A stretch of 44,424 nt of DNA. Origin: an uncultured Oscillospiraceae bacterium (lineage in GTDB: Bacteria; Bacillota; Clostridia; Oscillospirales; Oscillospiraceae). Positions 20,576 through 39,469 of this stretch are shown here, piece by piece. Below the pieces are notes generated by a model. That model had not been told where the DNA came from. It made no database searches and was given only the letters and a program-made list of their open reading frames with translations. Positions within the stretch are counted from its first letter, which is position 1. The number at the start of each line of letters is the position of its first letter. The translations under genes and the position numbers were made by a program. The DNA is taken from assembly GCA_949494735.1 (NCBI GenBank), contig CATABD010000013.1, forward strand, positions 1 through 44,424, in the 5' to 3' direction.

Positions 20576-20651
<76 letters not shown>

Positions 20652-27313: not shown

Positions 27314-27343
27314 CTCAACCATTTCTCAACGGTTTCCTTGACC
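27314..27343 (+). promoter_or_regulatory. Tandem repeats and -35 box before the ABC genes
   Basis: CTCAACCATTT and CTCAACGGTTT are direct repeats with an 11-base period (27314 and 27325). They are followed by TTGACC (27338-27343), a likely -35. Direct repeats at one helical turn next to the -35 are the classic binding site of OmpR/PhoB-type activators. A good -10 is not obvious. Confidence 0.6.
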
Positions 27344-27400
27344 GCTTTCTGGACGGTTCCATGCTACCATGGGCGCATCCAAGGAAACGGAGGTCTTTTT

Positions 27401-28315
27401 ATGGACTATGTACTGGTCACCCAGGGCCTGTCCAAGCGCTACAAGGATTTCAAGGCCCTGGACAGCCTCACCATGCACGTGCCCAAGGGCAGCATTTACG
27501 GCTTCGTGGGCCGCAACGGCGCGGGCAAAACCACCCTCATCCGGCTCATCTGCGGCCTGCAATCCCCCACCGGCGGCTCCTACGCCCTCTACGGCGTGGA
27601 CAGCGCCCAAAAGGACATCGCCAAGGTCCGCCGGAGGATAGGCGCGGTGGTGGAAACCCCGTCCATCTATCTCGACCTCACCGCCCAGGACAATTTGAAG
27701 GAGCAGTTCCGGGTGCTGGGGGTGCCCTCCGACGAGGGTGTCGGCGAGCTGCTCAAGCTGGTGGGCCTGGAGGACACAGGGAAGAAAAAGGCCCGCAACT
27801 TCTCCCTGGGCATGAAGCAGCGGCTGGGCATCGCCGTGGCCCTGGCGGGGGACCCGGACTTTCTGGTGCTGGACGAGCCGGTGAACGGACTGGACCCCCA
27901 GGGCATCATCGACATACGGGAGCTGATCCTCAAGCTCAACCGGGAGCGGCGCATCACCGTGCTCATCTCGTCCCACATTCTGGACGAGCTGTCCAGGCTG
28001 GCCACCCACTACGGCTTCATCGACTCGGGCCGCATGGTCAAGGAGCTGTCCGCCCGGGAGCTGGAGGCCGCCTGCCGCAAGTGCCTGCGCATTGAGGTTA
28101 CCGACACCCGGGCCCTGGCCCGTGTGCTGGACGGCATGGGCGTGGAGTACAAAATCCTGGACGACGGCAAGGCGGACGTGTTCGCCCAGGTGAACATCTC
28201 CCAGCTGTCCAAGGCGCTGGACAACCAGGGCTGCGAGCTGTTGAGCGCCCAGGAGCGGGACGAGAGCCTGGAGAGTTATTTCGTCAACCTGGTAGGAGGT
28301 GGTTCCCATGACTGA
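27401..28315 (+). CDS. ABC transporter ATPase, bacitracin/lantibiotic-resistance type
   Basis: It encodes a 304-residue ATPase of the BcrA/LanF type. The Walker A is GRNGAGKTTL (about residue 40). The signature is FSLGMKQRLGIA, unusual in having SLGMK in place of SGGQ but normal for this subfamily. The Walker B is LVLDEPVNGLDP, with the H-loop in ISSHILDEL. A C-terminal accessory region follows from about residue 215. It should power the two membrane proteins encoded next. The ATG at 27401 has GGAGGT 8 bases upstream. With the flanking regulator and kinase it forms a self-regulated peptide-antibiotic resistance module. Confidence 0.92.
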   Translation: MDYVLVTQGLSKRYKDFKALDSLTMHVPKGSIYGFVGRNGAGKTTLIRLICGLQSPTGGSYALYGVDSAQKDIAKVRRRIGAVVETPSIYLDLTAQDNLKEQFRVLGVPSDEGVGELLKLVGLEDTGKKKARNFSLGMKQRLGIAVALAGDPDFLVLDEPVNGLDPQGIIDIRELILKLNRERRITVLISSHILDELSRLATHYGFIDSGRMVKELSARELEAACRKCLRIEVTDTRALARVLDGMGVEYKILDDGKADVFAQVNISQLSKALDNQGCELLSAQERDESLESYFVNLVGGGSHD

Positions 28316-29168
28316 GCTGCTCAGCGCCAACTTTATGCGGCTGTGGAAAAACAACACCTTCTGGGGCTCCCTGGGGGTATGCGTGGGCCTGGGGGCGCTG
28401 GCGGCCCTGGGGGAGTTCCGGTTCCAGGTGGGCATGGGCGCCGACCTGAGCCTGCCGGAGGTGGCCCAGGCCAAGGCCCTGCTGGAGGGGCAGTTCTTCG
28501 AGTACGCCGCCTTTATCGGCATACTCGCGGCGGAATTCATCTCCCTGTTCATCGGCACCGAGTACAGCGACGGAGCCATCCGAAACAAGATTGTGGTGGG
28601 CCGGTCCCGGCTGTCTATCTATTTCGCCAACCTCATCACCGGCTTTGCCGCCTCCCTGCTGTGCATGGCGGGCTATATGCTGTCCTGCCTTGCGGTGGGC
28701 GCGCCCCTGCTGGGCTGGTTCACCAAACCCGCCCCCCTGCTCCTCTGGGCCATCGCCGGGTCAGTGGTAATGCTGGCGGCGTTCTGCGCCATCTTCACCT
28801 TTGCCTCCATGAACTGCTCCAAAAAGTCCACTTCGGCGGTGATCTGCCTGCTGGGGGTGTTTGTGCTGCTGTTCGCCGCCGTGTATCTCAACGCACGGCT
28901 GGAGGCCCCGGAGTTCATTAGCGGCTACGAGCTGTCTGTCGGCGGGGAAATCTCGCAGGCCGTGCCGGAGCCCAACCCCCATTATCTCACCGGGCTGGAG
29001 CGGGAGGTCTACCAGTTCCTCTACGACCTGCTGCCCACGGGGCAGTCCGTCCAGTACACCACGCTGGGCTTCACCGACCCGGCCAAGCTGATGGGGCTGT
29101 CGGCGCTGGTGGCGGCGGTATTCTCCGCCGCCGGAGCCGCGCTGTTCCGGCGGAAGGACTTGAAATAG
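28308..29168 (+). CDS. ABC-2 type permease, first of two
   Basis: It encodes a 286-residue membrane subunit with about six helices, of the type paired with BcrA-like ATPases. The N-terminus LLSANFMRLWKNNTFWGSLGV and the motif FIGTEYSDGAIRNKIVVGRSR are typical. A large external loop follows (about residues 205-250), and the end is ALFRRKDLK. It overlaps the ATPase stop by 8 bases with GTAGGAGGTGG before the ATG. It is clearly related to the next gene (both have EYSDxAIRNK and end in a KDLK motif), so the pair probably arose by duplication and forms a heterodimer. Confidence 0.88.
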   Translation: MTELLSANFMRLWKNNTFWGSLGVCVGLGALAALGEFRFQVGMGADLSLPEVAQAKALLEGQFFEYAAFIGILAAEFISLFIGTEYSDGAIRNKIVVGRSRLSIYFANLITGFAASLLCMAGYMLSCLAVGAPLLGWFTKPAPLLLWAIAGSVVMLAAFCAIFTFASMNCSKKSTSAVICLLGVFVLLFAAVYLNARLEAPEFISGYELSVGGEISQAVPEPNPHYLTGLEREVYQFLYDLLPTGQSVQYTTLGFTDPAKLMGLSALVAAVFSAAGAALFRRKDLK

Positions 29169-29177
29169 GTGGGTGGG

Positions 29178-29999
29178 ATGGGGAATCTGCTGGCGGCAAA
29201 CCTCTTCCGTCTGCGAAGGAGCGCCCTGTTTTGGGGCCTGCTGGCGGCCAGCGCGGGCTTTGGGGCCCTGGTCGCCTTCAATTACTACGAGATGAGCCAG
29301 ATAGAGCCCATCGCTCTGGACGGGGCGTTTTTCATCTATCCGCTGACGGCGGCCATTCTCACGGCGGTCTTTATTCCCCTGTTTCTCGGCCGGGAATACA
29401 GCGACAGGGCCATCCGAAACAAGGTGGCGGCAGGGCACCTGCGCCCCCATATATATGGGGCCGGCCTGATAACGGCTCTGGCGGCGTCCCTGCTGTTCTG
29501 CCTGGCCCACATAGCGGCGGTGGCTGTGGTGGGCGCGCCGCTGGTGGGGTTTATAGAAATGGCCCCCGCCGCGGCCCTGTCCCTCATACTGGGCTCGCTG
29601 GCGGCCATGGCGGCGTTCTGCGCCCTGTTCACCCTCATCGCGATGAACTGCGGCAAAAAGAGCGTGTCGGCTGTGGCGTGCGTCCTGGGCGTGTTTCTCC
29701 TGCTGCTGGCCGCCGTCTACGTCAGGAGCCGCCTGCTGGCCCCCGAATATCTGAATGGGGTCTGGAACACAAAGGGGGAATTCATCCCGGGCGGGCCCAC
29801 GTCCAATCCCCAATACCTGGGCGGCGCACAGCGGGCCGTTTTTGAGCTTCTCTATGCCCTGCTGCCCAGCAGCCAGGCCGTGGAGTACGCCAGCCGCGAG
29901 ACACAGAACCTGAACTGGTTCCCGCTGTACTCGCTGGCAGTCATTACCCTGTCCACCGGGACTGGCATCCTCCTGTTCCGCAAAAAAGACTTGAAGTGA
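29178..29999 (+). CDS. ABC-2 type permease, second of two
   Basis: It encodes a 273-residue paralogue of the preceding permease. Shared features are NLFRLRRSALFWGLLAASAGFGAL, GREYSDRAIRNKVAAGH, a similar MNCGKKSVSAVACVLGVF region and the terminal FRKKDLK. It has six predicted helices and an external loop near residues 200-240. The ATG at 29178 was preferred to the GTG at 29169 because of the GGTGGGTGGG tract directly upstream. It is followed 9 bases later by the sensor kinase gene. Likely role: export or expulsion of a membrane-active peptide together with the ATPase. Confidence 0.86.
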   Translation: MGNLLAANLFRLRRSALFWGLLAASAGFGALVAFNYYEMSQIEPIALDGAFFIYPLTAAILTAVFIPLFLGREYSDRAIRNKVAAGHLRPHIYGAGLITALAASLLFCLAHIAAVAVVGAPLVGFIEMAPAAALSLILGSLAAMAAFCALFTLIAMNCGKKSVSAVACVLGVFLLLLAAVYVRSRLLAPEYLNGVWNTKGEFIPGGPTSNPQYLGGAQRAVFELLYALLPSSQAVEYASRETQNLNWFPLYSLAVITLSTGTGILLFRKKDLK

Positions 30000-30008
30000 G
30001 GCGATTCC

Positions 30009-30899
30009 ATGCTCCCCTGGCTGCTGTGCGGCGGGTTTGCCGCTCTGGCCCTGGCCCTGTTTATCCGCGTCCGCCTGCTCCAAAAAGGCCTGGACGGCAT
30101 CACGGACCAGCTGGGGGAGCGGCTGGATTCCGACACCAACAACCCCATCTTCCTCCCCACCCGGGATACCCACGCCCGCAGGCTGGCGGCGGCGCTGAAC
30201 GTCCAGCTCAAGGAGCTGCGCCGCCAGCGCCAGCGGTATGAAAACGGCGACCGGGAGCTGAAGGAGGCGGTCACCAACGTCTCCCACGACCTGCGCACCC
30301 CGCTGACCGCCATCTGCGGTTATCTGGAGCTGCTGGACAAGGAGGACAAGACCCCCCGGCAGGCCCGTTACCTTGCCCTGATTGCCGGGCGGGCGGAGGC
30401 CATGCGGCAGCTGACCGAGGAGCTGCTGCGCTACTCCGTGGCCGCCGGGATGGATGGCGGGCTGGATTTGGAGCCGGTGGATCTAAACGGGGCGGTGGAA
30501 GAGGCGGTGGCCGCCCTCTACGGGGCGTTTGTGGAGGCGGGGATAATCCCCCGCGTCTCCCTCCCTGCGCAGCGGGTGGCGCGCAATCTGAACCGGGCGG
30601 CCCTGTCCCGCGTGCTGGGCAACCTGCTCACCAACGCGCTGAAGTACAGCGGCGGGGATCTGGACGTGGCCTTGTCCCCGGACGGCGCCATTACCCTGTC
30701 CAACGCCGCCCCGGCGCTGGACGAGGTGCAGGTCGGGCGGCTGTTCGACCGCTTTTACACCGTGGAGACGGGGCGCAGCTCCACCGGGCTGGGGCTGTCC
30801 ATCGCGCGGGCCCTCACGGAGCGCATGGGCGGGACCATCAGCGCCCGGTATGGGGCCGGGCGGCTGACGCTGGAGGTCCGCTTTCCGGGAACGTATTGA
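30009..30899 (+). CDS. Sensor histidine kinase
   Basis: It encodes a 296-residue kinase with a single N-terminal membrane helix (residues 3-20) and no extracellular sensor domain. The H-box has His93 in NVSHDLRTPLTAICGYL. The N-box is NLLTNALKYSGG and the G-boxes include SSTGLGLSIA. Kinases lacking a sensor domain in such modules usually detect their stimulus through the adjacent ABC transporter, as in BceS-type systems. The gene is the last of the cluster, and a strong terminator overlaps its stop. The cognate regulator is at 26348-27019. The ATG is preceded by GAGG. Confidence 0.92.
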   Translation: MLPWLLCGGFAALALALFIRVRLLQKGLDGITDQLGERLDSDTNNPIFLPTRDTHARRLAAALNVQLKELRRQRQRYENGDRELKEAVTNVSHDLRTPLTAICGYLELLDKEDKTPRQARYLALIAGRAEAMRQLTEELLRYSVAAGMDGGLDLEPVDLNGAVEEAVAALYGAFVEAGIIPRVSLPAQRVARNLNRAALSRVLGNLLTNALKYSGGDLDVALSPDGAITLSNAAPALDEVQVGRLFDRFYTVETGRSSTGLGLSIARALTERMGGTISARYGAGRLTLEVRFPGTY

Positions 30900-31071: not shown

Positions 31072-32463
31072 ATGGAAGACGTGAAAAAAGCGGAGCTGTT
31101 TGAGCGCACCCCCATCCCCAAAGCGGTGCTCACCCTGTCCGTCCCCACCGTGCTCAGCTCACTGGTGATGGTGCTCTATAACCTGGCGGACACCTACTTC
31201 GTGGGCATGCTCCAGGACCCCATCCAGAACTCCGCCGTCACCCTGGCCGCGCCGGTGCTGCTGGCCTTCAATGCGGTGAACAACCTGTTCGGCGTGGGCT
31301 CCTCCAGCATGATGAGCCGCTCCCTGGGCGCAAAGGACTACGACACCGTGCGCCGCAGCTCCGCCTTCGGCTTCTACTGCGCCCTGCTTTGCGGCGTGCT
31401 GTTCTCGGTGCTCACCGCCGCGCTGCGCGCGCCCCTGCTGGCCCTGCTGGGGGCGGACGCCTCCACCGCTCAGGCCACCCTGGGCTACCTGCGCTGGACC
31501 GTCTTTTTCGGCGCGGCGCCCGCCATACTCAATGTGGTGCTGGCCTATCTGGTGCGCTCGGAGGGGGCCACCCTCCACGCCAGCATCGGCACCATGAGCG
31601 GCTGCCTGCTCAACATCGTGCTGGACCCCATCTTTATCCTCCCCTGGGGCCTTGGCATGGGGGCGGCGGGGGCCGGGCTGGCCACCTTTTTGTCCAATTG
31701 CTTTGCCTGCCTGTACTTCTTCGTGCTGCTCTTCGTCCGGCGGGGCACGACCTACGTGTGCCTTCTGCCCGCCATGGCCCGGCCCCGGCGGGAGCTGGTG
31801 CGGGGGGTGTTCGGGGTGGGCGTGCCCGCCTCCATCCAAAACCTGCTCAACGTCACGGGCATGACGGTGCTCAACAACTTCACCGCCGTGTTCGGCCCCG
31901 ACGCCATCGCGGCCATGGGCATTGCCTACAAAATCAACATGATCCCCATGTACATCGCCATGGGCGTGTCCCAGGGCCTGATGCCGCTGGTGAGCTACAA
32001 CTATGGCAGCGGAAACGCCCCCCGGCTGAAAAAGGCCGTGCTGTTCGCGGCAAAAATCTCGCTGTCCTTTATGGTTGTGGTGTCGGCAGGCTATTTCTTT
32101 GCCTCCGGCCCCCTCATCGGCCTGTTCATGAAAACGGAGGCGGTGGTGGCCTACGGAACCCGGTTCCTGCGGTACATGTGCCTGGCCCAGCCGTTTTTGT
32201 GCCTGGATTTCCTGGCGGTGGGCGTGTTCCAGGCCTGCGGCCTGGGGCAGTACTCCCTGGTGTTCGCCCTGCTGCGCAAGATCGTGCTGGAGATCCCCGC
32301 CCTGTATATCCTCAACTATTTCTCCCCCCTCTACGGCCTTGCCTGCGCCCAGACCGTGGCGGAGGTGGTGCTGGCCGCCGCCGCGGCGGTCATTCTCACC
32401 CGCCTGTTTCGCCGCATGGCGGCGGAGGGCACCCCCCTGCCCCCCCGAACTGGGAAAAAATGA
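31072..32463 (+). CDS. MATE-family efflux transporter
   Basis: It encodes a 463-residue multidrug and toxin extrusion protein with twelve predicted helices in two homologous halves. Typical features are the N-terminal PKAVLTLSVPTVLSSLVMVLYNLADTYFVG, then GVGSSSMMSRSLGAKDY and the second-half PASIQNLLN...AMGIAYKINMIPM. PLVSYNYGSGN follows in the second half. It should expel cationic drugs or toxins using a sodium or proton gradient. The ATG at 31072 has GAGGG 7 bases upstream. It stands alone and the MITE in its leader may influence expression. The substrate cannot be deduced. Confidence 0.92.
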   Translation: MEDVKKAELFERTPIPKAVLTLSVPTVLSSLVMVLYNLADTYFVGMLQDPIQNSAVTLAAPVLLAFNAVNNLFGVGSSSMMSRSLGAKDYDTVRRSSAFGFYCALLCGVLFSVLTAALRAPLLALLGADASTAQATLGYLRWTVFFGAAPAILNVVLAYLVRSEGATLHASIGTMSGCLLNIVLDPIFILPWGLGMGAAGAGLATFLSNCFACLYFFVLLFVRRGTTYVCLLPAMARPRRELVRGVFGVGVPASIQNLLNVTGMTVLNNFTAVFGPDAIAAMGIAYKINMIPMYIAMGVSQGLMPLVSYNYGSGNAPRLKKAVLFAAKISLSFMVVVSAGYFFASGPLIGLFMKTEAVVAYGTRFLRYMCLAQPFLCLDFLAVGVFQACGLGQYSLVFALLRKIVLEIPALYILNYFSPLYGLACAQTVAEVVLAAAAAVILTRLFRRMAAEGTPLPPRTGKK

Positions 32464-32535
32464 TCCCGCCCCCCTTTCCTTTTCCCCTCCCTTGGCCGAT
32501 ATAAAGGGTAGAGAAACTGGAAAGGGGGGTAATCT

Positions 32536-33261
32536 ATGGCTATCCAGCCCATCGCCGCCGTGGGGCGGGAGGACGGGGAGGAACAGCAGCAAAGCAGCCT
32601 GCTGGCCCAGTCGCTGAAAAAGCAGGAGGAGAGCCGTATCTCCCTCACCGAAATGATCCGCGACGCCAAGGAGAAGGCGGACGCTCAACGGGAAAAGTTC
32701 AAGCTGGCCAAGACCTCCCCCCGGTATGGGGACGCCCCGCTGGAGGCTTACGCCCGGCTGAGCCGCGCCCGCACCCCGGCCCAGGCCGGCTCCGCCGCCG
32801 GGTACGCCCGCCGCCGCATTGTCCAGCTGGAGGCCGCCCGGCGGTCCGACCCGGACCACGCCGACCAGATCAAAGCCGCCGTAGGGCAGCTGAGAAAGGC
32901 GGTGAGCCGGGCGGGGCGCAAAAAGCTGGAACTCACCAGGGAGCAGCTGTCCCGGGCCCGCCAGAAACGCATGGCCCAGGAGAACAAGCGCCGGGAGGAA
33001 CAGCGCATCAAGCAGGAGCTGCGCCGCAGCCAGGCCATGCGGGCCGTCCGGGAATCGGGATATTTCCGGGAGACGGACATCGCCAACCGCCATGCCGACC
33101 AGCTCACTGCCACCAAAATGGAGCTGCGCCACCAGGCCGAGCAGCTGGGCTCCATCGCTTCGGTGGACGCCGCGCTCCAGGGCTATTCCGCCGGCGTCCA
33201 GCTGGCCGCCGCGGATGTGGACGCCCCCATGGAGGCCCCCCAGGTCAACGTTCAGGCATGA
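32536..33261 (+). CDS. Coiled-coil protein of unknown function
   Basis: It encodes a 241-residue, very basic and Arg/Lys/Glu/Gln-rich protein with no signal peptide or membrane helix. A Gln/Glu-rich start (EEQQQSSLLAQSLKKQEESRIS) leads into long helices. The region from about residue 90 to 165 (KAAVGQLRKAVSRAGRKKL, REQLSRARQKRMAQENKRRE) is a strong coiled-coil candidate. A short tail with SVDAALQGYSAG and a Val/Ala-rich end follows. I do not recognise a family. It begins 72 bases after the MATE gene with AAAGGGGGG before the ATG and ends at a strong terminator. A structural or scaffold role is possible but is only a guess. Confidence 0.7.
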   Translation: MAIQPIAAVGREDGEEQQQSSLLAQSLKKQEESRISLTEMIRDAKEKADAQREKFKLAKTSPRYGDAPLEAYARLSRARTPAQAGSAAGYARRRIVQLEAARRSDPDHADQIKAAVGQLRKAVSRAGRKKLELTREQLSRARQKRMAQENKRREEQRIKQELRRSQAMRAVRESGYFRETDIANRHADQLTATKMELRHQAEQLGSIASVDAALQGYSAGVQLAAADVDAPMEAPQVNVQA

Positions 33262-33273
33262 CAGACAGGACAG

Positions 33274-33309
33274 AAAACGGCCCTGCCGGAACTCCGGCAG
33301 GGCCGTTTT
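33274..33309. terminator. Bidirectional intrinsic terminator
   Basis: A nearly perfect stem AAAACGGCCCTGCCGG/CCGGCAGGGCCGTTTT lies between the coiled-coil gene and the convergent ABC exporter gene. Its ends give T-runs in both directions. Confidence 0.88.
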
Positions 33310-33362
33310 ACGCTGTCACGAACCTCTCCGTTCCCCGATAAAACGCCGCATCCGCAGGCAGG

Positions 33363-35192
33363 TTACGCCCCCAGCACCTTGGCCGCGTTCTCCTCGGCGA
33401 ACTGCTTGCTATACAGGGCGTGATAGTAGCCGTGGGAACGCAGCAGGGACTGGTGGGTGCCCTGCTCCACGATTTTGCCGTCCCGCACCACCAGGATCAG
33501 ATCCGCCTTGCGGATGGTCGACAGGCGGTGGGCAATGAGGAAGGAGGTGCGGTCCTGGAGCAGGTGGTCGATGGCGTTTTGGATATACTGCTCCGTCTGG
33601 GTGTCGATGGAGGAGGTGGCCTCGTCCAGCACAAAGATGCGGGGATCGGCCAGCACCGCCCGGGCAAAGGAGATCAGCTGCTTCTCGCCGGTGGACAAAC
33701 GGTCGCCCTCTTCGCCCACGTTGCTGTCCCAGCCCTGCTCCAGCTTGGCCACCACCTGGTCCGCCGACACCGCCCGGGCCGCCGCCTCGATTTCAGCGTC
33801 GGTGGCGTCCAGCCGGCCGTAGCGGATGTTTTCCCGCACGGAGCCGGAGAACAGGTGGGGGCTTTGCAGCACATAGCCGATATTGGAGTGGAGCCACAGC
33901 TGGCTGCGCTCCCGGTAGTCCCGGCCGTCGATCAAAATCTGTCCCTCGGTTGGTTCAAAGAACCGGCAGGCCAGGTTGACCAGGGTGGATTTGCCCGCCC
34001 CGGTCTCCCCCACAATGGCCACGGTGGTGCCCGCGGGTATATGGAGGCTGAAGTGCTCCAGCACATTGTCCCCGCCGTCGGGATAGCGGAAGGTCACGTC
34101 CTTGAACTCAATCTCTCCCTTGAGGGGCTCCCAGTTCTCCCGCTTGGGGTTGAAGGAGTCTCCGTATTTTTCTATGACCTGGGGGGTATCGGTGATCTGG
34201 GGCTGCTCATTGAGCAGGTCGGTGACCCGCTCGATGGACGCCTGGAGGGCAATGAACTCCGCCAGGTTGGCCGCGGTGACCTGAATGGGTTCAAAGATGC
34301 CCATGGCATAGGAGATAAAGACCGCCAGGGTGGAGATATCCAGCGCCTGCTCCGCCGTCAGGTAGCCCCCCCGCAGCAGCACGATGGCCACCGCCAGGGT
34401 GGAGAAGAACAGCGTCAGCGGAATATACACCGCGTTGAGCCGGGAGGCCCGCACACCGGAACCCCGCATGGTGTCGGTGAGCTCCCGGAAGCTTTGGATG
34501 CTCTGATCCTCAATCACCAGGGTTTTGGACGTCTTGGCCCCGGTGATACCCTCGTTGAAGGCCCCGGTGATCTTGGAGTTGAGCTTGCGCACCTTGCGGT
34601 TCCAGTGGAGGATGCGGGGCTGGAACCAGCCCGTCAGCGCCGCCACCACCGGCACGATGAGGATGACCACCAGCGCCAGCCGCCAGTTCAGGGCCAGCAT
34701 GGCTGCAAAACTGCTCAGCACATACAGCATCCCCCACGCCATGTCCGTCAGGTTCCATGCGATGTTGCCGGCGATGCGGTTGGTGTCGTTCATCACCCGG
34801 GTGATGAGGTAGCCCACTGGGGTGACGTTGTAAAAGGACAGGGACAGGGTCTGCAAATGGCCGAAGAGATCCCTTCTCATGTCCCGGCCCAGGTACATCT
34901 CCACGTACATGGCCCGGCGTGCAAAGCCCACCACCATCAGCGCCTCCAGTGCAATAGCCCCCAGATAGGCCGCTGTGTAGGCAGGCAGGCCGTCCAGCGT
35001 CCCCCGCTCGATAAAGTGGCTGATGGCGTACTTCTGGAACAGGGGAAGGATCACGTCCATCAGGGCGGTTAGGCCGTTGATGGCCACCATCAGCACAATG
35101 ATTTTCTTGTAACGGGCCAGGATAGGCAGCAGCCGCTTCCAGATCTTCAGGTCAAAGGATTTGGTATACTCTTTCTCGTCAAAAGCAGCCAT
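33363..35192 (-). CDS. Heterodimeric ABC exporter subunit with the catalytic Walker B glutamate
   Basis: It encodes a 609-residue half-transporter: six membrane helices (about residues 30-330) fused to an ATPase domain. The Walker A is GETGAGKSTLVN. The signature is LSTGEKQ in place of LSGGQ, and the Walker B is IFVLDEATSSID with the normal catalytic Glu. It complements the upstream subunit, which has the opposite defects, so the two make one normal and one degenerate ATP site, as in TM287/288 and BmrCD. It shares one base with the upstream gene (TAATG), so the two are coupled. Probable role: export of drugs or antibiotics. Confidence 0.93.
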   Translation of the reverse strand: MAAFDEKEYTKSFDLKIWKRLLPILARYKKIIVLMVAINGLTALMDVILPLFQKYAISHFIERGTLDGLPAYTAAYLGAIALEALMVVGFARRAMYVEMYLGRDMRRDLFGHLQTLSLSFYNVTPVGYLITRVMNDTNRIAGNIAWNLTDMAWGMLYVLSSFAAMLALNWRLALVVILIVPVVAALTGWFQPRILHWNRKVRKLNSKITGAFNEGITGAKTSKTLVIEDQSIQSFRELTDTMRGSGVRASRLNAVYIPLTLFFSTLAVAIVLLRGGYLTAEQALDISTLAVFISYAMGIFEPIQVTAANLAEFIALQASIERVTDLLNEQPQITDTPQVIEKYGDSFNPKRENWEPLKGEIEFKDVTFRYPDGGDNVLEHFSLHIPAGTTVAIVGETGAGKSTLVNLACRFFEPTEGQILIDGRDYRERSQLWLHSNIGYVLQSPHLFSGSVRENIRYGRLDATDAEIEAAARAVSADQVVAKLEQGWDSNVGEEGDRLSTGEKQLISFARAVLADPRIFVLDEATSSIDTQTEQYIQNAIDHLLQDRTSFLIAHRLSTIRKADLILVVRDGKIVEQGTHQSLLRSHGYYHALYSKQFAEENAAKVLGA

Positions 35193-37033
35193 TACGCCCC
35201 GCCCCCCTTCTCAACCAGCGCCCGGTCGTCGCTGCTCATTTGAATGTCGTAGATTTCCTTATACATGCCGGGCCGGGAGATGAGCTGGGCATGGGAGCCC
35301 ACGTCCGCCACCCGTCCCCCATCCAGCACCAGGATGCGGTCGGCCTGCATCAATGTGGTCACCCGGTGGGAGATGAGGATGACGGTGGCGTCCGCCATGC
35401 GCTCCTTCAAGGCGGCGCGGATCTTGGCGTCCGTCTCCGCATCCACGGCGGACAGCGAGTCGTCGAACACCATCACCGGGGCGTTTTGCAGCAGCATCCG
35501 GGCGATGGCCACCCGCTGCTTCTGCCCGCCGGACAGGGTAACCCCCCGCTCGCCCACCACCGTGTCCCAGCCGTCGGCCAGCTCGGTGATGGCCTCGTCC
35601 ACGCAGGCAATCTGGGCGCAGGCGCGCAGCTCCTCCTCCGTGGCGTCCGGGCGGGTGGCCGCGATGTTCTCCCGGATGGTCTGGGAGAACAGGAAGGGCT
35701 CCTGGAGCACCAGGCCGATCTGGCGGCGCAGCTCCTCCCGGGAGATATCCCGGATGTCCGTCCCGCCGATGGTGATCCTCCCCTGGCCCTCCCCCAGGTC
35801 GTACAGGCGGTCCAGCAGGTGGACCAGGGTGGATTTGCCCGACCCCGTCCCCCCCAGGATGGCGAAGGTGGAGCCCCAGGGGATGGTGAAGGACACATCC
35901 CGCAGCACCTCCTGGCCCTCGTAGCCGAAGGTGACGTGGTCGAACACGATGTCGCCGCCCAGGCGCACGGCCTTGGCCTGGGGGCCGTCCCGCTCCTCGC
36001 CGGCCTGGAGGATGTAGCCCACCCGGTCCATGGACACCCCCGCCTTGCTCATGTCGGACAGCACCCGGCCCAGAGACCGCACCGGCCAGGCCAGCGCGGC
36101 GTTGTAGGTGACAAAGGCCAGGAAGTCGCCCAGGGACAGCCCGCCCTCCACCGCCGCCACCGTTCCGGCCACCACCACCGCCATCACCTGAAGGCAGGTG
36201 AGAAAGGCCCCGGAGGCCCAGTAAATGCTGAGCACCTTGCCCAGCTCCACCCAGAGGGCGGAAAACCGGTCGTTTTTCTCCCCGAAGCGGTCGATCTCAA
36301 ACCGCTCCCGGCCAAAGGCCCGCACCACCCGCACACCGGTGAGATTCTCCTGGGCACAGGTGGTCAGCTCCCCCTCCGCCTCATCGGCGGTCTTGAACCG
36401 GGTGGAGATCTTGCCGTAAAACACCCCGGAGGCCGCGCCGGTAATGGGGATGAACGCCAGCGAAACCAGGGCCAGCTGCCAGTTCATTTGCAGCATGATG
36501 ACGGTGTAAAGCGCGATGAGAAACACTGTGCGCACCACCTCCATCAGCTGGTTGCAGACGAAGGTGCGGATGACCTCCACGTCGGAGGTGCACCGCTGGA
36601 TGATGTCGCCGGTGGCGTGGGCGGTGTGCCATTCAAAGCTCAGGCGCTGGATGTGGCCGTACAGGCCGTCCCGCAGGCTCTTCACAAAGCCCTCGGAGCC
36701 CTTGGACAGGTTGACGCGCATGCCGTAAATACACACGCCCCGCACCGCCGCGGCCAGCACCACCGCCCCCGCCGCCAGCCACAAAAAGGGCAGGGGATCG
36801 GCCCGGAGCCGGTCCAGGGGCGCCAGCGGGCGCAGAAAGCCCGGCAAATCCGGGGCTTCGCCCCCCAGCACCGAGTCCACGGTGAAGCTGATGATCTGGG
36901 GCACCAGCGCGTTGCAGGCGGTGTTCATCCAGGCCAGCGCAATGGCCCCGGTGAAAAAGCCCCAGCAGCCCCGCAGATGGCGCATAACCATGCCGGTCTT
37001 CTCCCGCCGGGACAGTTTTGTCTGTGATTCCAT
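35192..37033 (-). CDS. Heterodimeric ABC exporter subunit with degenerate Walker B
   Basis: It encodes a 613-residue half-transporter, first gene of the exporter pair. The membrane domain covers about residues 20-330. The ATPase has Walker A GGTGSGKSTLVH and a normal signature LSGGQKQRVAIA. Its Walker B is VMVFDDSLSAVD, where Asp replaces the catalytic Glu; such sites bind but hardly hydrolyse ATP in heterodimeric exporters. The ATG at 37033 has AAGGAG 7 bases upstream. The 5' region carries a promoter, a 27-codon leader ORF and an intrinsic terminator, which suggests induction by ribosome-stalling compounds, as described for bmrCD. Confidence 0.93.
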   Translation of the reverse strand: MESQTKLSRREKTGMVMRHLRGCWGFFTGAIALAWMNTACNALVPQIISFTVDSVLGGEAPDLPGFLRPLAPLDRLRADPLPFLWLAAGAVVLAAAVRGVCIYGMRVNLSKGSEGFVKSLRDGLYGHIQRLSFEWHTAHATGDIIQRCTSDVEVIRTFVCNQLMEVVRTVFLIALYTVIMLQMNWQLALVSLAFIPITGAASGVFYGKISTRFKTADEAEGELTTCAQENLTGVRVVRAFGRERFEIDRFGEKNDRFSALWVELGKVLSIYWASGAFLTCLQVMAVVVAGTVAAVEGGLSLGDFLAFVTYNAALAWPVRSLGRVLSDMSKAGVSMDRVGYILQAGEERDGPQAKAVRLGGDIVFDHVTFGYEGQEVLRDVSFTIPWGSTFAILGGTGSGKSTLVHLLDRLYDLGEGQGRITIGGTDIRDISREELRRQIGLVLQEPFLFSQTIRENIAATRPDATEEELRACAQIACVDEAITELADGWDTVVGERGVTLSGGQKQRVAIARMLLQNAPVMVFDDSLSAVDAETDAKIRAALKERMADATVILISHRVTTLMQADRILVLDGGRVADVGSHAQLISRPGMYKEIYDIQMSSDDRALVEKGGGA

Positions 37034-37057
37034 ACTCTACTCCTTCCCAATGGACGC

Positions 37058-37088
37058 AAAAAGCGCCCCTTCTGGACAGAAGGGACGC
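37058..37088 (-). terminator. Attenuator between the leader ORF and the ABC exporter
   Basis: On the minus strand GCGTCCCTTCT pairs with AGAAGGGGCGC (37078-37088 with 37063-37073, one U-G pair) around a GTCC loop. Five T follow (37058-37062). It is a full intrinsic terminator placed 25 bases before the first exporter ATG and 35 bases after the leader stop. In this position it would end most transcripts unless an alternative fold forms. Confidence 0.85.
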
Positions 37089-37123
37089 CGCGTACCACAA
37101 AATGACCGGGAATGGAAACCCGA

Positions 37124-37207
37124 TTACTCCATCCCCCAGGCGCGCAAATATCCCAAAAGTCCCAAATTCCCCGCGTTCTTCCCACCGAAAAATAGAGTGT
37201 TCAGCAT
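37124..37207 (-). CDS. 27-residue leader peptide of the ABC exporter operon
   Basis: This short ORF reads MLNTLFFGGKNAGN followed by LGLLGYLRAWGME and stops with TAA. It has the best ribosome binding site in the area, GGAAGGAGG exactly 8 bases before the ATG (37216-37224). It begins about 35 bases after the predicted transcription start. It is not hydrophobic enough for a signal peptide and I know no family. Its place between a strong promoter and an intrinsic terminator indicates a regulatory leader peptide whose translation controls read-through into the exporter genes. The order promoter, leader, terminator and heterodimeric exporter equals that of Bacillus bmrB-bmrCD, though the peptide is shorter. 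Confidence 0.7.
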   Translation of the reverse strand: MLNTLFFGGKNAGNLGLLGYLRAWGME

Positions 37208-37248
37208 GTTGCGCGCCTCCTTCCAAAGAAATTTTTACAGCGATGCCA

Positions 37249-37277
37249 AGTATATCCCTTTTGGCCGGGATTGTCAA
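37249..37277 (-). promoter_or_regulatory. Promoter of the ABC exporter operon
   Basis: On the minus strand a consensus -35 TTGACA (37272-37277) and -10 TATACT (37249-37254) are 17 bases apart. It begins only 5 bases behind the cutC stop codon. Confidence 0.88.
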
Positions 37278-37281
37278 GCCC

Positions 37282-38034
37282 TTATTTTTTCATCTCCGCC
37301 GCCACGCCGGATACATACGCCCTGTCCACCACCTTGTAGCAGTCCTCCGGGGGGTACAGGCAGCCGCCGTAGTGGATGCCCCGGTCGTTCCGGGCGGAGG
37401 GGTCGGTCCGGACGGTGTGGCCGGACATGTGCAGCTGGGCGCACCCGGTCTGGGCGGCCACCCACTCCAGGTTCCGGGCGTTGACGCCGCCGCCGGGGAG
37501 GATCTCCATGCGCCCGGCGGCATATTCCACCATCTGCCTGATGGTGTCCGCCCCCAGGGGCACGCTGGCCTGCTGGCCGCTGGTGAGCACCCTGGCCACC
37601 CCCAGCCCCATGAGGGCGTCCAGCGCCGCGCGCCAGTCCGGGGTCACGTCGACGGCCCGGTGGAACACCGCCTCCTTCCCCCGCTCCCGGCACAGCTCCG
37701 CCAGCGCCCCGGTGCGCTCCACATCCACCGTGCCGTCCCCGTGGAGGAAGCCGAAGGCCAGCCCGTCCGCCCCGTGGTCCAGCAGGAGCTTCGCGTCCTC
37801 CACAGCGGCGGCAAACTCCGCCCGGGTGTAGCAGAAGCCCCCCTCCCGGGGGCGCACCATGGCGATGATCTTCATCCCCGTCTCCCGCTTGGCCACCAGC
37901 AGGGAGCCCAGGGTGGGAGTGAGCCCCCCGTGGAACAAATCGCAGTTCAGCTCCACCCGGTCCGCCCCGCCCCGGTGGGCCTCAATCACGTCGTCCGCGC
38001 TGCCGCAGCATACCTCAAGCAGAATGTTTCCCAT
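37282..38034 (-). CDS. cutC: CutC family protein
   Basis: It encodes a 250-residue TIM-barrel protein of the CutC family. Conserved stretches are LLEVCCGSADDVIEAHRGGADRVELN at the N-terminus, HGGLTPTLGSL, MVRPREGGFCYT and AVFHRAVD. LPGGGVNARN and LHMSGHT follow towards the C-terminus. The family was named for copper tolerance in E. coli, but its biochemical role is unsettled and it may be an enzyme of sugar or thiol metabolism. No copper operator is seen in front of it. The ATG at 38034 has AAGGGGGACGGGG upstream; the 63-base upstream extension overlaps the promoter. It is divergent from the fucosidase gene. Confidence 0.92.
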   Translation of the reverse strand: MGNILLEVCCGSADDVIEAHRGGADRVELNCDLFHGGLTPTLGSLLVAKRETGMKIIAMVRPREGGFCYTRAEFAAAVEDAKLLLDHGADGLAFGFLHGDGTVDVERTGALAELCRERGKEAVFHRAVDVTPDWRAALDALMGLGVARVLTSGQQASVPLGADTIRQMVEYAAGRMEILPGGGVNARNLEWVAAQTGCAQLHMSGHTVRTDPSARNDRGIHYGGCLYPPEDCYKVVDRAYVSGVAAEMKK

Positions 38035-38065
38035 GTCCCCGTCCCCCTTCAGTTCTTTCCCGGTT

Positions 38066-38094
38066 ATTATATATTTCTCCCCGCCCGCTGTCAA
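38066..38094 (-). promoter_or_regulatory. Promoter of cutC
   Basis: On the minus strand a consensus -35 TTGACA (38089-38094) and -10 TATAAT (38066-38071) are 17 bases apart, an ideal sigma-A promoter. Confidence 0.9.
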
Positions 38095-38101
38095 CAAGGG
38101 C

Positions 38102-38130
38102 TTGTCATCCGACCGGGAACCCGGTAAAAT
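38102..38130 (+). promoter_or_regulatory. Promoter of the fucosidase gene
   Basis: A -35 TTGTCA and -10 TAAAAT are 17 bases apart. It is back to back with the cutC promoter, 7 bases between the two -35 boxes, so shared regulation is possible. Confidence 0.8.
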
Positions 38131-38152
38131 AGCCTGGAGAGGAGGCGGTTTG

Positions 38153-39469
38153 ATGTCCTTTGTATTTGACCGGGACGCCTATGAGCGCCGGACGGCCTGG
38201 TTCGTCCAGGCCCGGTTCGGCCTGTTTCTCCACTGGGGGCTGTACGCCATCCCCGCCCGGGGGGAGTGGGTGCGCAGCGTGGAGCGAATCCCCAACGGGG
38301 AGTACGACCCCCTCATGACAGAATTTGACCCCAGGCACTGCGACATGCGGGAGTGGATGGCGGCGGCCAAGGGGGCGGGGATGCAGTACGCCGTCCTCAC
38401 CGCCAAGCACCACGACGGCTTCTGCCTGTTCGACAGCGCCTATACGGATTTTAAGTCCACCAACAGCCCCGCCGGGCGGGACTTTGTGCGGGAATTTCTG
38501 GACGCCGCCAGGGAGGCCGGGCTGAGGGCCGGGCTGTACTTCTCCCTCATCGACTGGCGCCACCCCGACTTCCCCCACTACGGCGACCGCAACCACCCCA
38601 TGCGGGACGACCCGGCCTATGGAAACGGGGGCCGGGACTTCGGCCGCTACCTGGACTACATGCACGCCCAGGTGCGGGAGCTGTGCTCCAACTACGGAAA
38701 GCTGGATCTTCTGTGGTTTGACTTCTCCTATGATGAGCTGCGGGGGGAGGCGTGGCGGGGGACCGAGCTGATGGAGCTGGTGCGCGCCCTCCAGCCCGAT
38801 GTGGTGGTGAACAACCGCCTGGAGGTGAGCGGGGAGGGCTTCGGCTCGCTGGCCGCCTGCGCCCCCACTCCCTTCCACGGGGATTTCGTCAGTCCCGAGC
38901 AGATCGTCCCGCCCGACGGCCTGCGCGACGCCCAGGGCCGCCCCCTGGTGTGGGAGAGCTGCGTCACCATGAACAACCACTGGGGCTACTGCGCCCACGA
39001 CCGCTTTTATAAAAGCGCCCCCATGCTGGTCAAAAAGCTGGTGGAGTGCGTGTCCAAGGGGGGGAACCTGCTGCTCAACGTGGGGCCCGACGCCCAGGGC
39101 CGCTTCCCGGACCAGGCCTTGGCCATCCTGGCGGAGCTGGGCCGTTGGATGGACAAAAACGGGGAAAGCATTTACGGCTGCGGCGGCGCGGGGCTGCCCA
39201 AGCCCGACTTTGGCCGCTACACCCGCCGGGGGGACACGCTGTACGCCCACATCTTTGAGAACACCGTGGGCCCCCTGCCCCTGTTCGGGGTGGATCCGGC
39301 GGACATTTTGTCCATCCGCCGCCTGGCGGACGGCAGCCAGGTGAAGCTGTCCCAGAGCTGGGTGCACAGCGACTACCCCGCCCTGGCCTTCGCCGACCTG
39401 GGGCCCGACCCGGAGCTGCCCGACCAGACCGACACGGTGCTGGAGATCCGCCTCCGGCCCGGAACATAA
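38153..39469 (+). CDS. Alpha-L-fucosidase, GH29
   Basis: It encodes a 438-residue GH29 enzyme that removes alpha-linked fucose. The barrel begins with WFVQARFGLFLHWGLYAIPARGEWV. It continues with VLTAKHHDGFCLFDS, the nucleophile Asp in LLWFDFSYDE, WESCVTMNNHWGYC and LLLNVGPDAQGRFP. A short beta-domain ends the protein. There is no signal peptide, so it acts inside the cell on imported fucosyl sugars, for instance from mucin or milk glycans. The ATG at 38153 has GGAGAGGAGG 8 bases upstream; the longer open frame overlaps cutC on the other strand and is not used. Transporter genes for its substrate are not nearby. Confidence 0.94.
   Translation: MSFVFDRDAYERRTAWFVQARFGLFLHWGLYAIPARGEWVRSVERIPNGEYDPLMTEFDPRHCDMREWMAAAKGAGMQYAVLTAKHHDGFCLFDSAYTDFKSTNSPAGRDFVREFLDAAREAGLRAGLYFSLIDWRHPDFPHYGDRNHPMRDDPAYGNGGRDFGRYLDYMHAQVRELCSNYGKLDLLWFDFSYDELRGEAWRGTELMELVRALQPDVVVNNRLEVSGEGFGSLAACAPTPFHGDFVSPEQIVPPDGLRDAQGRPLVWESCVTMNNHWGYCAHDRFYKSAPMLVKKLVECVSKGGNLLLNVGPDAQGRFPDQALAILAELGRWMDKNGESIYGCGGAGLPKPDFGRYTRRGDTLYAHIFENTVGPLPLFGVDPADILSIRRLADGSQVKLSQSWVHSDYPALAFADLGPDPELPDQTDTVLEIRLRPGT

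Follow-up and report, generated by a model that had tools for sequence, protein, structure and literature searches.

A close parallel to the element discussed here is the bmrB-bmrCD operon of Bacillus subtilis, in which a leader open reading frame (ORF), a terminator, an antiterminator and an anti-antiterminator precede a heterodimeric ATP-binding cassette (ABC) exporter. Induction by lincomycin depends on translation of the leader, the bmrB ORF encodes 53 amino acids (aa) and holds the terminator within its coding region, and the predicted structures span nt 60-162 (PMC4191407). The leader that we describe lies on the minus strand of a 44,424-nucleotide stretch from an uncultured Oscillospiraceae bacterium of the gut, referred to below as the window (contig 13 of a 3.18 Mb draft genome with 214 contigs). 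It probably works like that of bmrB-bmrCD, yet it is not of the bmrB type, from which length and layout set it apart. It has 27 codons, the terminator lies outside the ORF (the ORF ends at 37124 and the hairpin starts at 37089), and the anti-antiterminator contains the leader's own Shine-Dalgarno (SD) sequence. An earlier note on this DNA, made from the letters alone, had already called the leader different from bmrB and shorter, which agrees with the part of the bmrB account drawn on here. We regard the element as a ribosome-mediated transcription attenuator, in which a ribosome stalled on the early codons would cause read-through into the exporter operon, with a probability of about 0.7.

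Other systems share parts of this architecture, as far as the portions of the reports used here describe them. The vmlR leader of B. subtilis also has an anti-antiterminator around its upstream ORF (uORF), an antiterminator with an apical hairpin (SL-2) and an intrinsic terminator, and is induced by arrest at initiation; it differs in its three-codon uORF, in an SD that is single-stranded before SL-1, in a target that is an ABC-F protein and no exporter, and in an extra hairpin over the target SD (PMC9226507). In rli80-hflXr of Listeria, a short ORF in the anti-antiterminator region, an antiterminator and a terminator likewise form a ribosome-dependent switch, but the ORF encodes 14 aa with an RLR motif and the target is HflXr (PMC6310831). 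A partial precedent is tlrB (yxjB, B. subtilis), where a hairpin also blocks further translation of the leader peptide. It differs by an RYR motif, by NusG pausing and by the hairpin sequestering the SD of the target gene, and its authors found no overlapping antiterminator (PMC6851288). Many attenuators have been predicted in front of ABC transporters (PMC2965389). Among the titles and abstract openings of the matches listed from the open-licence PMC literature, there was no description of the present leader.

The leader is made up of the following elements:

37209..37218, minus strand: arm A, AGGCGCGCAA, overlapping the leader SD (AAGGAGG, 37222-37216) and pairing with arm B
37124..37207, minus strand: leader ORF, from ATG at 37207 to TAA at 37124, 27 codons, MLNTLFFGGKNAGNLGLLGYLRAWGME
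37150..37163, minus strand: antiterminator strand AT, just 5' of arm B, consisting of GGGAC (37163-37159) and GGGAU (37154-37150), with specific pairing to the terminator 5' arm
37138..37147, minus strand: arm B, TTGCGCGCCT, complementary to arm A and close to the end of the ORF
37108..37136, minus strand: hairpin P2, enclosing the stop codon of the leader and capping the computed antiterminator at its apex
37062..37089, minus strand: intrinsic terminator of 12 bp with a 4-nt loop, GGCGTCCCTTCT-GTCC-AGAAGGGGCGCT
37078..37089 and 37062..37073, minus strand: the terminator 5' arm (T5, 37089-37078) and 3' arm (T3, 37073-37062), with five T at 37062-37058

Along the minus strand, a CutC-family gene, a promoter, the leader ORF, the intrinsic terminator and two overlapping ABC exporter genes follow each other. 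The earlier note had read the promoter, the 27-codon ORF with its SD, the five-T terminator and the exporter ATG in this order, and every element is present. The SD is strong, 34 nt separate the stop codon from the terminator in the window, and the terminator hairpin has an energy of -20.2 kcal/mol, loop included. The RNA from 37242 to 37033, whose folding the note had proposed, reaches -82.2 kcal/mol (z -3.92), which none of 200 shuffles equals.

Both comparison with relatives and computation bear out the leader layout, the terminator, the helix between arms A and B (A:B), P2 and the specificity of AT for T5. Orthologues of the exporter (E up to 1e-100) were present in 31 of the 60 searched genomes, own included. 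The note had pointed to conservation at homologous loci as a check, and the SD, start codon, short ORF and terminator are kept in matching places in all 25 same-genus loci with enough upstream sequence, own included (27 loci in total; L015 misses the gene start and L019 has 73 nt upstream). The leader ORF and terminator are also kept in other genera. A covariance model built from 24 same-genus leaders (R1) matched 26 of 400 family genomes in 14 genera (E up to 1e-3). Its match table holds 27 places, six of them in the window's genus. Eighteen of the 21 others were inspected (all except L055, L057 and L061), and ten of these (L040, L041, L044-L049, L054, L058) precede the same kind of exporter, as judged from the start of the translated frame. 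Two more (L052, L060) precede a MetN-type gene, at L043 the leader is present and the contig ends too early to show the downstream gene, and five places have no such leader (L050, L051, L053, L056, L059). An accepted leader was found in 46 of the 62 named loci examined upstream (of 79 named loci, L074, L079 and L081 were short or partial, L128-L140 were the most distant and left aside, and L123 gave no start). Some of these leaders, at L113-L126, have quite different arms and precede exporters whose identity is only about 43-45%.

No second leader copy was seen in the window's own genome, where R1 gave one strong match and a next one at E 0.52; the A/B arm pattern matched three times there, the window leader among them. 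In its strict form, the pattern occurred in 53 of the 400 family genomes, but so did a backwards control in many of them. Recognisable by eye among the strict matches were four leaders before exporters (G000, G021, G030, G350) and two Met-rich ones (G263, G359). A distant-mode search of a plasmid collection returned no match. Rfam gave no leader family at the gathering score, the only match in the window being a tRNA at 20576, and nothing relevant at E up to 1, where one match (E 0.47) was far under its gathering score.

Altogether 102 upstream regions were taken, of which 13 gave no leader; deduplication left 68. From these, L030, L089, L097, L099, L100, L103 and L109 were dropped as chance or wrong-start matches, and L115, L116 and L121 for lacking a terminator in the upstream stretch taken, their assigned gene start being probably too early. 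Setting aside L026 and L054, where a wrong hairpin was taken, gave 56 leaders, and leaving out nine distant leaders gave 47. Similarity, and not a label, placed L066, L073 and L101 with the window's genus. These nine, within L112-L126 (eight with GGCC or GGCT arms, plus L118), were separated post hoc, after inspection of the state-pairing results. A hairpin precedes the T run in 58 of the 61 leaders scanned, counting L026 and L054 with their other hairpin, and the leader ORF ranges from 19 to 39 codons (59 leaders). Directly after the T run (37057-37053, minus strand, in the window), 11 of the 25 same-genus leaders carry GCGTC or GCGCC, a partial repeat of T5 that might base-pair with T3.

Arms A and B change jointly across loci, for example as GGCGCGC/GCGCGCC, GGCGCAC/GTGCGCC, GGCGTGC/GCACGCC and GGTGCAC/GTGCACC, and further as GGCATACAGGA/TCCTGTATGCC, GGCCGC/GCGGCC and GGCTGCGC/GCGCAGCC, some of these pairs having G-U or mismatched ends. 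On an alignment of 24 of the 25 same-genus leaders (A2, which omits L024 because of a long insert), 95.8% of the A:B helix is paired, with both-sided changes in three of nine pairs. Taken together with the terminator, 96.3% of the cells pair and 22 cells show both-sided changes, compared to 3.7 in shuffles, none of 500 being as high. At pairs 4, 5 and 6 of the helix, 4, 5 and 5 different standard types occur, and 59/59, 59/59 and 58/59 leaders keep the pairing. As the arms of the 59 leaders were chosen as the best helix, the dinucleotide-shuffle control of the score is fairer: at least 20 was reached by 51 of 75 distinct upstream regions versus 2 of 375 shuffles, and at least 17 by 57 of 75 versus 9 of 375. 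All 25 same-genus loci score at least 17, and 22 at least 20. In Escherichia coli trpL, the synthesis of the leader peptide is likewise limited by pairing of the start region.

The segment AT pairs with T5 in two parts in the window, GGGAU (37154-37150) with GUCCC (37086-37082) and GGAC (37162-37159) with GUCC (37077-37074) in the terminator loop. The earlier note had considered two antiterminators: its GGGAC with GTCCC lies in the right region, in a register shifted from the computed one, while its AGAACGC segment is unpaired in the early-stall fold. Its outline of an attenuator is sound, and leader-based attenuation is supported by the conservation, the covariation of the competing helices and the controls; what it overlooked is the A:B helix. 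Extended by arm B against the T5 flank, the two-part helix reaches -22.9 kcal/mol, a duplex value without loop cost that is not directly comparable with the -20.2 of the terminator with its loop. Plain matches between AT and T5 occur in other genera, at L041 (CCAGAGGG/CCCTCTGG), L043 (TGAGGGAC/GTCCCTCA) and L044 (AGAGGGGC/GCCCCTCT), and at L091 (CTCAGAGG/CCTCTGAG) and L127 (TGCAGAAG/CTTCTGCG). The AT:T5 duplex energy is -14.4 for a leader's own arms, compared to -11.0 with swapped arms (own better in 42 of 47 leaders) and -10.5 with a shuffled segment (43 of 47). Own pairs beat swap and shuffle in 24 and 26 of the 27 leaders in or near the window's genus, and in 18 and 18 of the 20 others. Folding of the nascent RNA in context gives 0.63 for own AT:T5. 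The value is 0.47 when T5 is swapped (own better in 48 of 56) and 0.38 when AT is shuffled (own better in 47 of 56).

Hairpin P2 encloses the stop codon in 54 of 55 leaders, with a mean z of -1.40 and z below 0 in 48 of 55. Its place at the antiterminator apex parallels SL-2 in the part of the vmlR model used here (PMC9226507). A T run follows P2 in 12 of the 55 leaders versus 4.4 expected, too few for a pause site to be claimed.

We propose the following mechanism. With no ribosome on the leader, the SD in arm A would pair with the ORF end in arm B and sequester AT; T5 could then pair with T3, and transcription would end near 37058. During free translation, the ribosome would reach the stop codon and cover AT and B while T5 emerges, so that the terminator would form again. 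An initiated ribosome stalled within about the first codons would instead cover A and free B and AT, which would pair with T5 and its 5' flank, with P2 at the apex. Formed before T3 is synthesised, this antiterminator would let RNA polymerase read through into the exporter operon. The leader is presumably translated, and drugs that stall the ribosome early would be the signal, the classes usually considered being lincosamides, phenicols, pleuromutilins or macrolides. In state modelling of 56 leaders, the mean pairing of T5 with AT and B before T3 is made was 0.09 + 0.03 for naked RNA; it rose to 0.49 + 0.15 when a ribosome sat on codon 6, and was 0 when the ribosome had reached the stop codon. 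Naked nascent RNA also pairs T5 with A (0.25).

Several results weigh against this mechanism. The codon-6 figures exclude the RNA upstream of the ribosome, arm A included. In a finer scan that allows A to pair past the ribosome, AT:T5 (0.44-0.55) forms in the window leader for stalls at codons 1-3 alone. Stalls at codons 4-6 and 14-27 lead to A:T5 (about 0.9), and the A:B helix re-forms around a ribosome at codons 8-13. This narrowing of the inducing stalls lowered our probability from 0.72 to 0.70. Across the 47 leaders, AT/B pairing falls from 0.48 with the ribosome twenty codons before B to 0.19 at eleven. Once T3 is present the terminator dominates every modelled state (0.95 naked, 0.86 stalled, 0.97 at the stop), thus termination or read-through must be decided kinetically. 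Without gaps, the best AT:T5 helix of the window has 5 bp and is no better than shuffles (90 of 100 as good), hence AT:T5 support in this leader needs the two-part, gapped helix. A linker-based test of AT-B against T5, a probability measure that saturates, was weak, with 25 of 47 on swapping T5 (p 0.09) and 30 of 47 on swapping AT-B (p 0.02). The nine distant leaders lie above the swap mean in only four cases, leaving the antiterminator unsupported there, and since the rows are related, p-values overstate their independence. Furthermore, 16 of the 62 named loci have no accepted leader, several of them at 47-60% exporter identity, so leader presence does not simply track exporter identity.

The A:T5 pairing also allows for a late-stall switch: a ribosome stopped at the end of the leader would cover B, and the freed SD would itself pair with T5 as the antiterminator. 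A ribosome on the last codons does give T5:A of about 0.7 on average and 0.9 for the window leader in the model, and the duplex of A with T5 beats shuffled A in 44 of 47 leaders. However, A:T5 shows no covariation, own T5 being better than swapped in 20 of 47 (duplex) and 24 of 47 (linker test), and such a switch would activate the exporter whenever the leader is translated normally, except if a following ribosome occupied the SD. We consider late stalling unlikely, and the A:T5 pairing is probably incidental. It may be artefactual, the SD being rich in purines and the arm that it meets rich in pyrimidines.

Considerably less probable is that the leader regulates nothing, its terminator merely lowering expression or ending cutC transcripts and its ORF being incidental. 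The preference for the terminator in all modelled states would fit, but other genera also keep the SD, the start codon, A:B and AT:T5, with covariation, and a promoter of its own stands between cutC and the leader ORF:

37249..37277, minus strand: promoter, -35 TTGACA (37277-37272), 17 nt, -10 TATACT (37254-37249), 11 of 12 consensus positions

In 32000-38500 there are 3 promoter-like sites, compared to 0.9 +/- 1.0 in shuffles. A promoter-like match (in relatives TTGAC[AG], 15-19 nt, TA[TA]A[CT]T) lies at most 400 nt upstream in 23 of the 25 same-genus loci, the exceptions being L025 and L026. A perfect TTGACA-17-TATAAT site (12/12) is located near the 5' end of the CutC-family ORF (38094-38066, minus strand).

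Slightly less probable still is an arrest peptide, that is, a nascent leader peptide stalling the ribosome by its own sequence, with or without a drug. Many same-genus leaders share a C-terminus of the type G-Y/F/I-L-R-A-x-G, and in close relatives codon position 2 is the least variable (16 changes upstream of AT versus 35 and 32 for positions 1 and 3; 13 overlapping pairs, with 4 pairs of unequal length skipped). This recurring LRAxG, however, is what one frame of the arm B RNA encodes. The arm ends on codon position 3, 1 and 2 in 39, 12 and 8 of the 59 leaders, and the same kind of RNA reads LRA, AARL, CAFLRP or HFCGR depending on the clade. As arm B is read in all three frames, it is the RNA rather than the peptide that is conserved. 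Upstream of AT, 43 of 65 changed codons in the same 13 comparisons are non-synonymous. An open frame is thus kept, with at most a weak constraint on the peptide. The macrolide-arrest motif R/K-X-R/K occurs in 19 of the 59 leaders and is absent from the window peptide MLNTLFFGGKNAGNLGLLGYLRAWGME.

Least probable is an amino-acid attenuator like those of trp and his, responding to a single charged tRNA. It would use the same RNA logic and has a counterpart in Met-rich leaders with the same A:B helix before a MetN-type gene in two other genera, whereas the exporter leaders are not rich in any single residue (commonest Gly, 11.7% of 1575) and the window peptide has no control-codon run. The two Met-rich leader peptides, MRNCYGMMMDRMGMMRMPTSPRACF... 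and MTYGYGMMMEMMDMAMMPMPTPARAC... (L052 and L060, in genomes G263 and G359), precede a MetN-type ATPase with a NIL domain, whose best match is TIGR02314 (358 and 377 bits, under the cut-off of 499.7). Both have the same helix between SD and ORF end, with a terminator recognised by eye, and are located about 1.5 kb inside the reversed locus. In a set of 30 other loci of this ATPase, Met-rich short ORFs were seen at L173, L196 and L200, and doubtfully at L198; there is none at the MetN-type copy of the window's own genome, L174. Tentatively, these leaders could belong to a common attenuator chassis of gut Clostridia, in which the leader SD is the first pairing arm and only an initiated ribosome switches the operon on. 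The codons carried would then set the signal, neutral ones reporting general translation stress before a drug exporter, and Met runs giving methionine control before a MetN-type importer.

The operon downstream of the attenuator encodes two ABC proteins:

35192..37033, minus strand: exporter subunit 1, 613 aa, ATG at 37033, Pfam ABC_membrane + ABC_tran
33363..35192, minus strand: exporter subunit 2, 609 aa, Pfam ABC_membrane + ABC_tran

The start of subunit 2 and the stop of subunit 1 share a single base. Subunit 1 has an intact LSGGQ signature and a degenerate Walker B (FDDS); subunit 2 has an intact Walker B (LDEA) and a degenerate signature (LSTGE). Complementary degenerate motifs of this kind usually denote a heterodimeric exporter in which one ATP site is weak. 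In the PDB, the best sequence matches of both subunits are eukaryotic ABCB proteins, and the bacterial ones include SAV1866, TM_0288 and YheI/YheH (BmrC/BmrD). Adjacency of the genes, their complementary motifs and YheI/YheH among the relatives agree with the heterodimeric exporter that the note had named. None of the PDB sequence relatives is near enough to name a substrate.

On the plus strand, an ABC ATPase, two ABC-2 membrane proteins and a histidine kinase are encoded consecutively at 27338-30899, followed by a MatE transporter at 31072-32463. Together these genes are possibly a cluster for sensing and export of peptide antibiotics adjoining the exporter. A 241-aa ORF between the MatE gene and the exporter (32536-33261, plus strand) had no Pfam or NCBIfam match at E up to 0.001.

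The drug-inducible attenuators compared here come from Bacillus and Listeria, and the type found in the window stands before an efflux operon in many uncultured Clostridia of the gut and rumen. The leader predicts that the exporter would be induced by sublethal ribosome inhibitors, best by drugs that stall ribosomes at the very start of the leader. With its own SD as a switch arm, it would act as a simple logic gate, on when a ribosome has both initiated and stalled, and this feature could guide the search for more such leaders.

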